Positions 12,775 through 25,007 of a stretch of 33,117 bases of DNA are shown piece by piece. This stretch comes from Deltaproteobacteria bacterium (GTDB lineage Bacteria > Myxococcota > XYA12-FULL-58-9 > JABJBS01). Below the pieces are notes generated by a model, which saw only the letters and a list, made by a program, of their open reading frames with translations, had not been told where the DNA came from and searched no databases. Each line of letters starts with the position of its first letter. The stretch's first letter is position 1. Position numbers and translations under genes: made by a program. The DNA lies in contig JABJBS010000344.1 of the NCBI GenBank assembly GCA_018668695.1, positions 1-33,117 on the forward strand, written 5' to 3'.

Positions 12775-14186
12775 AAAGACTCAGCGGAATGGATGCAGCG
12801 TTTCTTTATGGAGAAACCCCAGCTGTGCATATGCACACGCTTAAGGTGGCCATTGTTGATGCCCCACAGGGCGACAGCAACTTTTTGTTTTCTCGGCTTA
12901 AGCATGAGCTGACCAAGCGTCTTCACCTCATGCCCCTTTTTAAATGTAAGGCCGTAAATGTACCGCTTGGTCTTCATCACCCGATCTGGGCCGATGATCC
13001 AGAATTCAATATCAGTCGTCATGTGCGCAGACTTGCAGTGGTTGCTCCAGGAGGACAACGAGAACTAGACGATACCATCGCGCAAATCGCAGGGCGCCCA
13101 CTACGGCGCGACCGGCCCCTCTGGGAAGTATGGATGCTTGAAGGATTGCCCGGCAACGAAATCGCTTATGTGGCTAAAATTCATCATGCGATTGCTGATG
13201 GTCTCGCGTCTTCAACACTTTTGAATCAGGTTATGGATCCAGCGGACGGCTCATCTCGTGTGACTCCGTTTCCCGCCACCCCAAAAGAGCCGAGTTCAAC
13301 GCCATCTCCCACGAAACTGGCCTGGAATGCGCTTAAGCAAACCCCTGCCAGGGCAGCTGGACTTCCGAGTCTCATGTCGCGAACACTGCAAGGCACTCGC
13401 AGACTCATTCGCCACCACCGCCAGGATGGTGACCGTTTACCGGGACCTTTTGCTACAGAGAAGACAGTGCTCAATACATCAATCGGACCGCGGCGCTCAT
13501 TTGCCACCACCAGTATTGAGTTTGAACGCTTACGGGTTATCAAAAGCTTTCTCAACGTGACCATCAATGATGTAGTCTTGGCATTGGTATCCGGCGCGCT
13601 AAGAGACTTTCTAAATACTTACGATATGTGTCCGGAGAAGCCCTTAATCGCTACAGTCCCGGTTTCTATCGCTCTCAACCACGGCGACATGCACACACAG
13701 GGCAACAAGCTGAGTAATCTCTTTACGTCGTTGTGTACCAACATCGAGTGCCCGCTCGAGCGTATTCGAGCGATTCATCTTGCCAGCGTAAGCGCGAAAC
13801 AGGCAAGCGATTGCATGGGAACGGAGATTCTACACGAGTGGGCAGAGTACATTCCACCGCTTCCATATAAGGCTGGTCTTCGGCTTTACTCAGACCTAAA
13901 GCTTGCCAATCGGCACCGTCCGCCCGCGAACGTTATCGTGTCCAATGTAAGAGGGCCTGACCGCATGTTGACCGTAGGCGGTAGAAAGCTCAAACGCTTC
14001 TATTCTGTAGGTCCCATCTTAGGCGGCATGGGTCTGAACCTCACTGCTTGGAGCTACGCCGGGCAATTGAATGTAACTGCCTTGGGCAACCACCAGACGT
14101 TGCCTCATATTCATGAGATTACAAATCGATTGGAATATGCTCTACAAGATTTAGAGCAAGCCATTGCGAAAGCAAAAGCGGCTTAG
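12771..14186 (+). CDS. Wax ester synthase / acyl-CoA:diacylglycerol acyltransferase
   Basis: Bifunctional WS/DGAT-type enzyme that esterifies fatty alcohols or diacylglycerol with acyl-CoA, producing storage wax ester or triacylglycerol at the inner membrane and lipid droplets. The N-terminus, MKRLSGMDAAFLY, is typical. The catalytic HHxxxDG is HHAIADG at residues 138-144. The second family motif NDVVLALVSGALR and the late GGMGLNLTAWSY block are present. The 471-aa length matches Acinetobacter and actinobacterial homologues. It is the last gene of the operon, coupled by a 4-nt ATGA overlap. Its TAG stop overlaps the TAA stop of the converging CAP gene, so no terminator separates them. No fatty acyl-CoA reductase is in the window, leaving wax ester versus TAG open. 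Confidence 0.95.
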   Translation: MKRLSGMDAAFLYGETPAVHMHTLKVAIVDAPQGDSNFLFSRLKHELTKRLHLMPLFKCKAVNVPLGLHHPIWADDPEFNISRHVRRLAVVAPGGQRELDDTIAQIAGRPLRRDRPLWEVWMLEGLPGNEIAYVAKIHHAIADGLASSTLLNQVMDPADGSSRVTPFPATPKEPSSTPSPTKLAWNALKQTPARAAGLPSLMSRTLQGTRRLIRHHRQDGDRLPGPFATEKTVLNTSIGPRRSFATTSIEFERLRVIKSFLNVTINDVVLALVSGALRDFLNTYDMCPEKPLIATVPVSIALNHGDMHTQGNKLSNLFTSLCTNIECPLERIRAIHLASVSAKQASDCMGTEILHEWAEYIPPLPYKAGLRLYSDLKLANRHRPPANVIVSNVRGPDRMLTVGGRKLKRFYSVGPILGGMGLNLTAWSYAGQLNVTALGNHQTLPHIHEITNRLEYALQDLEQAIAKAKAA

Positions 14187-14929
14187 GAAATTTTTACTCG
14201 GACCGGTTCACGCTCTTTGCGGCGTAGAAAAAATACACCGGCCAACATCCACATCCACAGAGTGGGTCCTGTTTGTCGGCAGCTAGCCTCAACCCCATCG
14301 TCCGAATCGATGCCTGAACCTTCGTCCGTAACACCATCACCTGTTTCAGTGTTGTTTTCTTCACCGCCGGAGTCTGGGGTTTCGCCCTCAGAGCCACCCT
14401 CTCCAGAACAGTCACCGGTACCATCTACCCAATTCGAGAAATTGTTGGTCCAGTACCAACCGAAATATGAGTTTTCAATATAGACTCGGCCAATTCCAAT
14501 GGAAGTAAAGCTTCGGTCCAGCATATTTTCATTGTGACCGGGACTTGTTCGCCACTGCTCAAAGGTAGCTTCCGCAGAAGCGTTGCCTGCGGCGATATTC
14601 TCAGCGGCGCTTGTCCATTGGTCATGACCAAATGCAGTGATTCGATCAAAGGGATCTCGACCCGTACAGATATCACCGGCATCATCACAAGGCGGTTCGT
14701 TGTGGTCGAAAAAACCTTGCTCACCCATCGCGCCACTCATGTAAGTGGCCGCATCGTTCATCGTAGGCGATGGCGTTAGGCATGGTGCTCCATTGGCTTC
14801 ACGGTACTCGTTGATGATTCGAAGAAACTCAACCTCTTGTTCATCGAGTGCAGAATCTCCAGCCGCCAAAATGCCTTGAGGAATCAGCATTGCGAAAGCC
14901 AAAAACAGATAGAACAACTTTATTTTCAT
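14183..14929 (-). CDS. CAP-domain (SCP/PR-1) surface protein with MYXO-CTERM-like tail
   Basis: Secreted protein of the cysteine-rich secretory/PR-1 superfamily; the biochemical role in bacteria is mostly unknown. A signal peptide occupies about residues 1-22 (MKIKLFYLFLAFAMLIPQGI). The CAP domain follows, with AAENIAAG and the signature GHNENML then FTSIGIGRVY. A Glu/Gly/Asp/Thr-rich linker leads to a C-terminal Cys, a hydrophobic span (LWMWMLAGVFFL) and RRKER, an arrangement like the MYXO-CTERM sorting tag of myxobacteria. I chose ATG 14929 over the upstream 14986 because GAGGAAA sits just before it and the signal peptide then begins at the start. Its stop overlaps that of the WS/DGAT gene on the other strand. 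Confidence 0.85.
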   Translation of the reverse strand: MKIKLFYLFLAFAMLIPQGILAAGDSALDEQEVEFLRIINEYREANGAPCLTPSPTMNDAATYMSGAMGEQGFFDHNEPPCDDAGDICTGRDPFDRITAFGHDQWTSAAENIAAGNASAEATFEQWRTSPGHNENMLDRSFTSIGIGRVYIENSYFGWYWTNNFSNWVDGTGDCSGEGGSEGETPDSGGEENNTETGDGVTDEGSGIDSDDGVEASCRQTGPTLWMWMLAGVFFLRRKEREPVRVKIS

Positions 14930-15013
14930 TACTTTCCTCAAAAGGGAGTCCGGGGGTTGGCTAACTATAGGCACCCTCAAGCTCATACGCCAAGCCTCAA
15001 CCGTAAAGTTCCT

Positions 15014-21480: not shown

Positions 21481-21768
21481 GATTTCCTGGTTGCTCCCGT
21501 GAATTGCAGCAGTTGTCTTAACGGCTCCACCAACATCGTGCAACTCAACATCTTATCAACAAAATAGCTCAATGTTTTTAGCACCTTAACATTCCTCCGC
21601 TACGGGTCGGCCTATTTCTTCTATAAATCCATGCATCTAGATAAGTTAGTGCTAGTTTTGTTTGGGGGGTCCACGTGACCGAAAGAAGAGTCCAGATGCG
21701 TTGAGTATCAAAGTAACTGATGCCATTCGATTAATCAGTGCGCTCACTGAGTGCACGGGGGAGAGATG

Positions 21769-22986
21769 ATGAGAGTACCTTTACGAAAGAGCTTCGCGAC
21801 AACCGCGGTGTCCGTATTTTTGACACTGATGGTCGGCTGCGCCGCGACCGAAACAACCGGCGACGAAACCGATGCTGCAGATGCAAGTGATGCAAGTGAT
21901 GCCGCAGACAGCAGCGATGCAGCCGATGCATCAACCGCCGAGCCTGAATGTGAGGCAGATTCAGATTGCCCAGATGGCACCCAAAGATGTGACAATGGTG
22001 AGTGCGTTCCCAAATGCGAAGGCGTTGTCTGTAACGAGGACATCGGCGAAATCTGCGATCCAACCACCGGAGCGTGCGTGGGCGGCAGTGATACCTGCGA
22101 AACCAGCGACGATTGCTCGGGCGGTCAAATCTGCGAAGAAGGCCTGTGTGTACTCAGCCGATTGAGTGATTGTACAGGCGGTAAAGCCTGTGCGGCTGGC
22201 TTAGACTGTGTTGAAGGGCCGGTTAGTCTTTGCGTGGCACCTTGTGCTGACCACACTGCTTGTAGCATTTTTGAATATTGTATGACGCCGGACATGGTGC
22301 CAATTGCGCCTATGGCTGCCTTTACCAATTATTGTTTTCCAAATCTATGTAACCCGGGTGGAGATGCCTTTGGCGTTTTCCAAGACACCCCTTACAACGG
22401 GCCATGTGATGTGGTTGAAGATGGAGACGGTGCGGGCCGATGTATTGGACCCATCGACGAGAACATCCAAGGAATTTGTGCAGACTTCCAAGGCCAATTG
22501 GGTATTGGTGAAAGCTGTGACGCCGCCGCCCTGCAGGGCTCGGAAAACACTTGTCTGGATTCATTCTGTGCCGAACCGGTTCTTGGCGGAACATGCTCGC
22601 AACTGTGTAACGTGACTGAAGGCGCGACCTGCGAGGCAGGGACCCTAGGAGCTACATCCTGTCTCCCAAGCTTTACCGAAGGCAACGGACTTTGCATTCC
22701 CGGTTTGGCAATGGCTGAGGCAGGAGCAAGCTGCACGGCTGACCCAGCAACCGGCCTGAATAGCGGGGGACCTGCATGTGTGGATGGTTATGCGTGTGTT
22801 TCAACTGATCCGAGCAGTGAAGACCAAGTGTGCGTAGCATGGTGTAATCCCAATGCAGCTGAAGGCGAAGCCAACGGATGTTCTGAAACTGAGATTTGTT
22901 TCACAGAGGGTGCTCCAGACGGAACCGGCGTGTGTATCCCCGTTGCTTCTGGCGGTGATGGAGATGCTGGCGAAGATGCTGGTTGA
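21769..22986 (+). CDS. Cys-rich lipoprotein with Asp/Ala linker
   Basis: I do not recognise a specific function. The start at 21769 follows GGGGGAG by five nt; ATG 21766 and GTG 21751 are alternatives. The signal peptide ends in a lipobox, LMVGC, with acylated Cys at residue 24. A low-complexity linker of Asp, Ala and Ser (about 30-55) is encoded by imperfect GATGCA-type repeats. Most of the rest is a cysteine-rich ectodomain with repeats such as DSDCPDGTQRC and DDCSGGQICEEGLC, probably disulfide-bonded small modules. It closes with GGDGDAGEDAG. Such proteins are abundant in bradymonads and myxobacteria and are presumed surface-exposed. A strong terminator follows. Confidence 0.8.
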   Translation: MRVPLRKSFATTAVSVFLTLMVGCAATETTGDETDAADASDASDAADSSDAADASTAEPECEADSDCPDGTQRCDNGECVPKCEGVVCNEDIGEICDPTTGACVGGSDTCETSDDCSGGQICEEGLCVLSRLSDCTGGKACAAGLDCVEGPVSLCVAPCADHTACSIFEYCMTPDMVPIAPMAAFTNYCFPNLCNPGGDAFGVFQDTPYNGPCDVVEDGDGAGRCIGPIDENIQGICADFQGQLGIGESCDAAALQGSENTCLDSFCAEPVLGGTCSQLCNVTEGATCEAGTLGATSCLPSFTEGNGLCIPGLAMAEAGASCTADPATGLNSGGPACVDGYACVSTDPSSEDQVCVAWCNPNAAEGEANGCSETEICFTEGAPDGTGVCIPVASGGDGDAGEDAG

Positions 22987-23022: not shown

Positions 23023-23053
23023 AAAAACGGGAGCCTGGCTCCCGTTTTTTTTT
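23023..23053 (+). terminator. Intrinsic terminator after the Cys-rich lipoprotein
   Basis: The arms ACGGGAGC and GCTCCCGT, with a CTG loop, are followed by a run of nine T residues and preceded by five A residues. It lies about 40 nt after the lipoprotein stop. The A-run may also let it act on transcripts of the converging Spy-like gene, whose stop is at 23080. Confidence 0.95.
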
Positions 23054-23079: not shown

Positions 23080-23826
23080 TTAATTTTTTTTACGCTGACG
23101 GTCGATTTGCTCATCGCGCCAGGTTTCATAGGCAACGAGTTTATTTTCATCGAGCAGGTCACGAACAAGCGTGTCGGTTTCAGTGCGCCGCATCCGAGTG
23201 GCCTTTCGAGCCTGAGCCCAAGAAATATCACCGCTTCGAACTTGGCCCCAAAATCCGCGGACGGCCTCGTTCTCAGAATTGATGGCGTCGTTTAAAGTAT
23301 CGGCGTCAGAACCCGAAAGGTCCAGCATCTCATTCAACGCTTCAAGCTCTTGCTCCACCCGTTCACGGCGACGCTCTTGCCTATCATCACGTCGTTCTGA
23401 AGAAGCTGCGGCCTGCTCTTCCCGAATCATATCGCGTAGGCGCTCACTGGCACGTGGGTTACTCATCACGGTTTCAAACGCATCCTCAACCGCTTGAGGC
23501 ATGGCTTGAGGCTGATCTTTTTCCTCTTCACCGGCACCGCTACCTTGAGCTTGCTCTAAACTTCCAGCGGCAGCAGCAAAGCTTGGACCTCGATTTTCTA
23601 AAATCGCAATACGGTTCTCGAGGGCACGCATCCGACCATTGCCACCGCGCATAGCTTTACGAAAATCATCCCCAACGCGCACCGGTTTGTCACTGGAGAG
23701 GAGTTCTCCCGTTTGAATACCCTGAGCTGATAATGATTCTTGCAGAGCACCGATTTTAGTGTGCTGCCAACCAAGTGCCGACACACAACCCGCTAATAAT
23801 ATCCACTGAAAGTATTGTGTCTTCAT
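23080..23826 (-). CDS. Spy/CpxP-like helical envelope protein, N-terminal anchor
   Basis: No exact family is recognised. The N-terminus MKTQYFQWILLAGCVSALGW is a hydrophobic anchor that also contains LAGC, so it is either a lipoprotein (Cys14) or a signal-anchored protein. A coiled-coil segment (RMRALENRIAILENRG) is followed by a Gln/Glu/Ala-rich stretch and by a charged helical domain rich in Arg and Glu (about 125-245) containing LNEMLDLSGSDADTLNDAI, which resembles the antiparallel-helix layout of Spy/CpxP periplasmic chaperones. The start is chosen as 23826, where the membrane segment begins; only GGGAA precedes it, and this lies in the stem of a large leader hairpin. It follows the selenoprotein gene on the same strand. 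Confidence 0.6.
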   Translation of the reverse strand: MKTQYFQWILLAGCVSALGWQHTKIGALQESLSAQGIQTGELLSSDKPVRVGDDFRKAMRGGNGRMRALENRIAILENRGPSFAAAAGSLEQAQGSGAGEEEKDQPQAMPQAVEDAFETVMSNPRASERLRDMIREEQAAASSERRDDRQERRRERVEQELEALNEMLDLSGSDADTLNDAINSENEAVRGFWGQVRSGDISWAQARKATRMRRTETDTLVRDLLDENKLVAYETWRDEQIDRQRKKN

Positions 23827-23920: not shown

Positions 23921-24685
23921 TTAATTACCGAATATCTGCTCACAATCGGCGAGCACCTCATTGGGATGTGCACCTGGGCTAAAATCGCTGATTTCAGTAT
24001 ATTCTAGAATCAGCTTACCCTCAGCATCCAACAAAACAGTGATTCGCGAATAAGCTCCGAACCAACCGTCATCGGCGCCATACCTTGCGGCCAAAGCACC
24101 CCTGGCATCATCTTGCCATAACTCGTATTGAAAGCCTTCTTGCTCAGCCCAGCTTTGATGCTCGGCCGGCGAAGCAGTACTCACACCTACAATCTGTACA
24201 CCCAATGCCTCGAACGCATCATATTGGTCACGGTACCCGCAACCTTCGATCGTTCAGCCAGGTGAATTGGCGAGTGGGTAAAACCACATCACCGTGGGTT
24301 GCCCCACAAGATTCGCAGCAGTTCGCTCTGAACCATCACGGTTTAAAGCAAGAAACTCTACAGGCTCAAGATTTGAAGCCGGCAAAGTTCCGTTAAGGTC
24401 GAGCTGCGAGAGATCGATCTCTTCAGGCTCAGTGGTATCTGAGGCATCGGACGGATCATCAGATGAACTCGCATCGCTTGTATCCGTATCCGAGTCGTCA
24501 GAACCATCTGACGCATCAGACGCGTCAGAGCCATCTGTCGAGTCTGTTGTACTCGCATCACTTGGATCTTGAGTATCATCAGCCACACTTTGATCCGTTC
24601 CCTGATTCTCAGAATCGGCCGGACCTCCTTCATCAGCCGCACAAGCCATCAGGCTTAGCGACAACAACAACACAAACCATCTCAC
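23921..24685 (-). CDS. Selenocysteine peroxiredoxin (BCP type), lipoprotein
   Basis: Thiol peroxidase reducing hydrogen peroxide and organic or lipid hydroperoxides, probably membrane-anchored. The true start is GTG 24685, with AGGAGG exactly six nt upstream; an in-frame ATG at 24727 lacks such a site. The signal peptide ends in LMAC (acylated Cys15). Residues about 20-85 are an acidic Asp/Ser/Ala/Thr linker. The peroxiredoxin domain follows: WFYPLANSPG, then in-frame TGA (24254-24256) at residue 144 where the peroxidatic Cys belongs, then TIEGCGYRDQYDAF and VQIVGVSTASPAEH. Resolving Cys149 gives the CxxxxC pattern of BCP enzymes. The frame is unbroken across the TGA, and a SECIS-like hairpin follows. 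Ordinary gene callers will report two truncated ORFs. The 254-residue chain includes Sec. selA-selD are not in the window. Confidence 0.9.
24226..24256 (-). promoter_or_regulatory. Bacterial SECIS element with its UGA codon
   Basis: The minus strand has TGA (24256-24254), nine nt, then GGTTGCGG (24244-24237), loop GTA (24236-24234) and CCGTGACC (24233-24226). All eight positions pair, two by G-U wobble. The apical loop begins 18 nt after the UGA and holds the GU pair recognised by SelB. From memory, the E. coli fdhF SECIS contains GGUUGCAGGU at a similar distance, almost the same upper strand. This supports UGA recoding as selenocysteine. Confidence 0.85.
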
Positions 24686-25007
24686 ATCAAACCTCCTGGT
24701 ACAGTGAGTTATAACGCAGTGCTTCATAACGGTTCTTTCCTGATCTCACCATAGCTTGTTCACCTAAATCAACCTCTGCTCAATGCTCATCCGCGACTAT
24801 TTTGGCGGATAAGGACTCATAATGTGGCGTTTTCGACCGCTCAAGCACCAGTTTTGAAACACACTCCTAAAAAACCTAATAAAATTAACGAATCCGATTA
24901 GCGATTCGATTGTAAAACTTTGGCATAACCCATGCAGTTACCTTTACAGCTCAATGGCAGGATGTTCAGCTGCCCGAAAATGCGAAATCTAAAACCGAGA
25001 GTTGTAA
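24686..25007. other. 322-bp divergent intergenic region
   Basis: The region separates the selenoprotein gene (minus) and the patatin-like gene (plus) and should hold both promoters. AGGAGG for the selenoprotein is at 24697-24692. An inverted repeat, CGAATC (24889-24894) with GATTCG (24903-24908), is operator-like. The stretch 24865-24920 is AT-rich. I see no reading frame or RNA gene that I would support. Confidence 0.45.

Follow-up and report, generated by a model that had tools for sequence, protein, structure and literature searches.

The window (the whole 33,117-nt stretch of DNA that was analysed) carries on its minus strand a gene which, once a single in-frame TGA is read as selenocysteine (Sec), codes for a predicted lipoprotein with a peroxiredoxin domain of the BCP/PrxQ type (Table 1). 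Read in this way, the frame runs uninterrupted from the GTG at 24685 to the TAA at 23921 and contains just this one TGA; an ORF finder that takes TGA as a stop cuts the gene into two pieces. The earlier note had joined these two minus-strand ORFs into one gene, and the frame is indeed continuous across the TGA. On either side of it, codon preference points to this frame (0.10 and 0.16 bits per codon), and the other two forward frames are negative. On the downstream side a reverse frame reaches 0.11 as well, so the result counts as supportive evidence only for frame continuity. Since gene-calling programs as a rule stop at a TGA, a protein of this kind is easily overlooked. The host genome (G000; loci are designated below by L, genomes by G) comprises 5.87 Mb in 424 contigs, is 98.6% complete and probably belongs to the Myxococcota, the phylum referred to below.

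Table 1. Features of the peroxiredoxin locus (window coordinates)
Feature	Position	Strand	Details
Ribosome-binding site	24692..24697	-	AGGAGG, 6 nt 5' of GTG; read from sequence
Whole gene, putative Sec-containing BCP/PrxQ-type peroxiredoxin lipoprotein	23921..24685	-	254 residues with Sec144; GTG start, TAA stop
Predicted lipoprotein signal	24641..24685	-	MRWFVLLLSLSLMA|C, lipobox LMAC, Cys15 = +1; judged by eye
Acidic Asp/Ser linker	24401..24640	-	residues 16-95; 22 D, 17 S, 5 E, zero K/R
AhpC-TSA (peroxiredoxin) domain	24011..24358	-	across the TGA; Pfam
TGA read as Sec144	24254..24256	-	peroxidatic position (PGUT)
SECIS-like hairpin	24226..24244	-	GGUUGCGG-GUA-CCGUGACC, loop 24234-24236; folding, bSECIS rules
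Codon of Cys149, presumed resolving Cys	24239..24241	-	role inferred from BCP/PrxQ family
Downstream gene, membrane-anchored coiled-coil-like protein	23080..23826	-	ATG 23824-23826
Terminator-like 12-bp hairpin	23023..23049		T tails on both strands; beyond the downstream gene

In the product of the downstream gene, a membrane segment at the N terminus precedes a body that is charged and coiled-coil-like, and no Pfam family scored above its cut-off for this protein. Since no terminator-like site was found between this gene and the peroxiredoxin gene, the two are possibly co-transcribed. Elsewhere in the window, positions 14183-14986 (minus strand) code for a secreted protein that by eye is CAP/SCP-fold-like. 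Its C terminus, a hydrophobic stretch with FFLRRKER, resembles a sorting tail of the MYXO-CTERM type.

The peroxiredoxin domain and its relatives

The Pfam AhpC-TSA profile matches residues 110-225 with an E-value of 4e-22 (78.9 bits, cut-off 26). When the window protein is aligned with its homologues, the TGA falls on the column of the invariant catalytic Cys, where the homologues have either Cys or Sec; this agrees with the earlier placement of the TGA at the peroxidatic site (PG-C-T). Three further residues are invariant: the motif Pro, the Thr that follows Sec, and an Arg (alignment residue 129). In the window site, PLANSPGU, Ser replaces the usual Thr of PxxxTxxC, so the site reads as PxxxT/SxxC(U) and is accompanied by the Arg. 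Cys149, reported earlier as kept, is present in the translation at the +5 resolving position and lies in the predicted model on the same helix as Sec144. Apart from Cys15 and Cys149 the only Cys is C248.

For residues 86-254 a fold was modelled with an alignment of the window sequence and locus sequences, 26 in all, as input and with Cys in place of Sec; the model has a mean pLDDT of 90.8 and a pTM of 0.88. Both by sequence and by predicted fold the best PDB matches are BCP/PrxQ proteins, namely M. tuberculosis BcpB (5epf), Sulfolobus Bcp1 (3drn) and Xanthomonas PrxQ (5iiz), with TM values of 0.74-0.79 by query length; the modelled domain is thus nearest to BCP/PrxQ in fold. These Cys-type structures share with the window protein the fold and the layout of the active site. 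They differ from it in having Cys for Sec, in sequence (26-32% identity) and in the absence of a membrane anchor from the solved chains. Since the NCBIfam equivalog cut-offs are missed for BCP (NF006960, 57.7 bits of the 140 needed), PrxQ (NF053650, 48.1 of 260) and PrxU (NF040737, 22.4 of 270), the window protein is, judging by its sequence, a divergent relative of BCP/PrxQ and not an equivalog of any of these three families.

Sec-containing peroxiredoxins as such are not new, as the earlier note had said. Sec-Prx of the COG1225 Bcp/PF00578 type (motif TxxU) is included in two catalogues of prokaryotic selenoproteins (PMC9312934, PMC13188914), and the experimental case that they cite is the Eubacterium acidaminophilum enzyme (Soehling 2001, as cited there). 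The catalogued proteins resemble the window protein in the peroxiredoxin fold, the UGA at the peroxidatic Cys and a SECIS within the coding region directly downstream. The window protein differs from them in its lipoprotein signal and acidic linker and in Ser for Thr in PxxxTxxU, and against the PrxU equivalog model it reaches only 22 bits (cut-off 270). The words 'lipoprotein' and 'Myxococc-' do not occur in either catalogue text, and a search of open-access papers for selenoproteins in Myxococcota or for lipoprotein Sec-peroxiredoxins returned nothing relevant. Because both catalogues already include the COG1225/Bcp type, what is new by comparison with them is the lipoprotein form, not the Sec-BCP kind of peroxiredoxin.

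A profile search of 195 genomes of the phylum found the lipoprotein Sec-BCP, among the matches listed, in two genomes: the window gene and L036 in G052. The profile derives from these two sequences, which makes them top-scoring by construction; from about 320 bits the score drops to 102 at the next matches. L036, the closest relative found, shares with the window protein the LMAC lipobox, the site FYPLANxxGUT and the TGA at the same codon, and it has its own paired SECIS-like hairpin, GGUCUCGG-GUU-CCGAGAUC. It differs in being only 39% identical, in its shorter linker, in its gene neighbourhood, which the window does not share, and in having no +5 Cys, so the two lipoproteins do not have a resolving role at this position in common. 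Beyond the phylum, coverage was confined to a scan of genome contigs, whose one match, L071 of a Bacteroidales MAG, is a BCP of the Cys type. Cytosolic Sec-BCPs are common in the phylum (L053 of G000 itself, L073-L077, L099, L100, L102, L113 and L117). They share with the window protein the PGUT(x)xGCGFRD site and have a nearly identical hairpin, GGUUGCGG-GUU-CCGCGACC. Unlike it, they lack lipobox and linker, are 26-32% identical to the window domain and form a separate branch of the tree.

Decoding of the TGA

The earlier note had singled out absence of selB and tRNA-Sec as evidence against its reading; selA, selB, selC and selD are all present in G000. The genome encodes tRNA-Sec (selC), selA adjoining selB, and selD. 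Both selA and selB are clear family matches. A search of the genome for the SelB-wing_2 domain was negative, but the genome proved to encode a full-length SelB that has wing_3. Across the phylum, selA is present without exception in the 26 genomes listed as having a TGA-type homologue and in 124 of the 169 others (P = 0.0006, with genomes treated as independent despite their kinship and with the TGA-type genomes being those among the matches listed).

The hairpin downstream of the TGA has an 8-bp stem and a GUA loop located 17 nt from the UGA. Its energy is -9.3 kcal/mol for the stem-loop alone and -10.8 kcal/mol for a folded 23-nt piece (z = -2.95 against dinucleotide shuffles). The published bSECIS model specifies a stem of 4-16 bp, a loop of 3-9 nt with G within the first two positions, a spacing of 16-37 nt and an energy of at most -7.5 kcal/mol (PMC13188914). 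The window hairpin falls within these limits, as expected from the earlier proposal of a bacterial SECIS at a distance suited to SelB. The likeness then noted between its upper strand and the E. coli fdhF SECIS is also borne out: GGUUGC and then GGU are common to both, the fdhF 42-mer having been verified against annotated fdhF in E. coli genomes. An Rfam scan of 24050-24400 matched no family, which says little, the generic bacterial SECIS being short and variable. Because the hairpin lies within conserved codons (G-C-G-Y-R-D), we compared it with synonymous recodings of the same peptide at the codon usage of the window, of which 3.4% have an equally stable hairpin. By itself, therefore, it is only moderately beyond chance, and it is the comparison of homologues that makes it convincing.

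Among phylum homologues, a hairpin reaching -7.5 kcal/mol follows the site in 22 of 25 TGA genes and in one of 27 Cys genes; the corresponding P-value (7e-10) is too strong, since the sequences are related. The covariation score of 11 distinct TGA genes was reached by 3 of 500 shuffles. Two-sided compensatory changes are seen in L036 (G-C to U-A) and in L072 (G-C to C-G). About six changes between Sec and Cys are needed on the tree, in which long branches affect the placement of the two lipoproteins. The single Cys gene with a strong hairpin (GGUUGUGG-GUU-CCGCGACC) is L031 of G092, a Cys-type BCP. As it is nested in a Sec clade, it looks like a recent change from Sec to Cys with a leftover SECIS. 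A different hairpin, in which 21 nt, not 17, separate the loop from the UGA, is found in L078 and L079 (G103 and G067) and in family f23 (L076, L091, L098, L118, L121 and L124), which suggests that Sec-BCP groups of the phylum have remade their SECIS on more than one occasion.

Within G000, eight of the 26 AhpC-TSA matches contain exactly one TGA, in each case at the position of a redox-active Cys. The sites are PGUT in the two proteins of BCP type (the window gene and L053), GGURKE (L055), and UxxC or a similar motif in L057 (ATWUPVC), L064 (DWUGYC), L065 (DWUGSC), L067 (FGULFC) and L082 (AAWUQGC). Most of these eight genes have a hairpin after the TGA; a simple hairpin search missed L055 and L067. 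L064 and L065 have a hairpin in common, with a compensatory difference.

These data bear on whether the TGA might be a real stop in what is otherwise an ordinary lipoprotein peroxiredoxin of the Cys type, produced by a nonsense mutation or by an error of sequencing or assembly. Cys homologues are common and the gene comes from a single draft genome in 424 contigs. Against this stand the frame and the peroxiredoxin motifs, kept in both halves of the gene, the redox sites at which the other TGA genes of G000 have their TGA, and the complete Sec machinery. Moreover, a sequencing error is unlikely because the distant L036 likewise has TGA at this codon, together with a compensated hairpin of its own. 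Overall, we consider a genuine stop very improbable. Reading of the UGA as some other residue, whether through near-cognate decoding or because the genetic code has changed, is more improbable still: this analysis found nothing that supports it, the Sec machinery is complete and accompanied by a hairpin within the SECIS rules, and the TGA occupies a redox-Cys position in every TGA-containing homologue examined. Given this machinery, the TGA on the catalytic column, the bSECIS-type hairpins across homologues and the same TGA in L036, the in-frame TGA of the window gene is almost certainly read as Sec.

A predicted Sec-peroxiredoxin of the cell envelope

The N terminus (MRWFVLLLSLSLMAC) is short and, by eye, resembles a lipoprotein signal, with Cys at +1 of a putative lipobox whose LMAC recurs in L036. 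Lipid anchoring in the cell envelope is therefore a prediction from sequence. In E. coli, the residue after the lipid-bearing Cys sets the membrane destination (the +2 rule). By this rule the Ala that we see at +2 would direct the protein to the outer membrane. The earlier note had regarded the long acidic Asp/Ser linker as special, and this did not hold. An unrelated Cys-rich lipoprotein-like protein encoded in the window at 21751-22986 (plus strand) has a lipobox, LMVGC, followed by a similar Asp/Ser/Ala linker, and the linker of L069 is also of a similar Asp/Ser kind. As the unrelated lipoprotein carries the same kind of linker, this feature is, on the sequences compared, a general habit of G000 lipoproteins and no functional mark; as a sign of a role in envelope defence it is ruled out.

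Several of the other seven TGA-containing proteins of G000 are likewise predicted to be secreted or to be lipoproteins. A lipobox is evident in L064 and L065, and L082 may be a lipoprotein too. Matches from a thioredoxin search of the genome have no TGA. The genome also encodes a DsbD-type protein with a C-terminal Trx domain, and an envelope selenol/thiol system is plausible.

The presence in G000 of several Sec-containing TlpA-like lipoproteins raises the question of whether the window protein, too, acts mainly in thiol:disulfide (or other thiol) redox chemistry and not as a peroxidase. Its divergence from BCP, with Ser in place of Thr in PxxxTxxC and a score below the BCP equivalog cut-off, would fit such a role. 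However, its site is the PGUT of peroxiredoxins and comes with the conserved Pro and Arg, the structures most similar to the protein are those of BCP/PrxQ peroxidases, and the UxxC motif is lacking. We consider a mainly thiol-redox function unlikely, if somewhat less so than a genuine stop. The explanation that we favour, and hold to be highly probable as a whole, is that the gene codes for a Sec-containing BCP/PrxQ-type peroxiredoxin made as a lipoprotein.

For this peroxiredoxin, the following course may be proposed. The hairpin that closely follows UGA144 would guide SelB and Sec-tRNA-Sec in decoding this codon as Sec. The protein would be exported, receive its lipid on Cys15 and be held at the envelope through the flexible acidic linker. 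The Pro and Arg conserved in peroxiredoxin sites, here with Ser for the usual Thr, would activate Sec144, which would reduce hydrogen or organic peroxides and itself become a selenenic acid. Cys149 on the same helix would then resolve the selenenic acid to a selenenylsulfide, and a thiol reductant of the envelope, probably a Trx-fold protein fed by a DsbD-like membrane protein, would recycle the enzyme. In this scheme Sec insertion, peroxidase activity, location, the resolving role of Cys149 and the reductant are all inferred from sequence and, for the steps beyond the hairpin, from what is typical of the family. The fold, the active site and the lipobox point to a putative function in defence of the envelope against peroxides.

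More tentatively, the window protein might belong to an extracytoplasmic selenium redox circuit. Together with the Sec-containing Trx-fold envelope proteins L064, L065, L082 and perhaps L057, and fed by a DsbD-like protein, it could form a selenol relay for the removal of peroxides from the cell surface; we regard such a circuit as possible but doubtful. The repeated exchange of Sec and Cys across the phylum, including a Cys gene that keeps its hairpin, also lends itself as a natural test of SECIS gain and decay. For the organism itself, a lipid-anchored Sec-peroxiredoxin encoded alongside other Sec-containing lipoproteins suggests that selenium chemistry takes place in the envelope of some Myxococcota.
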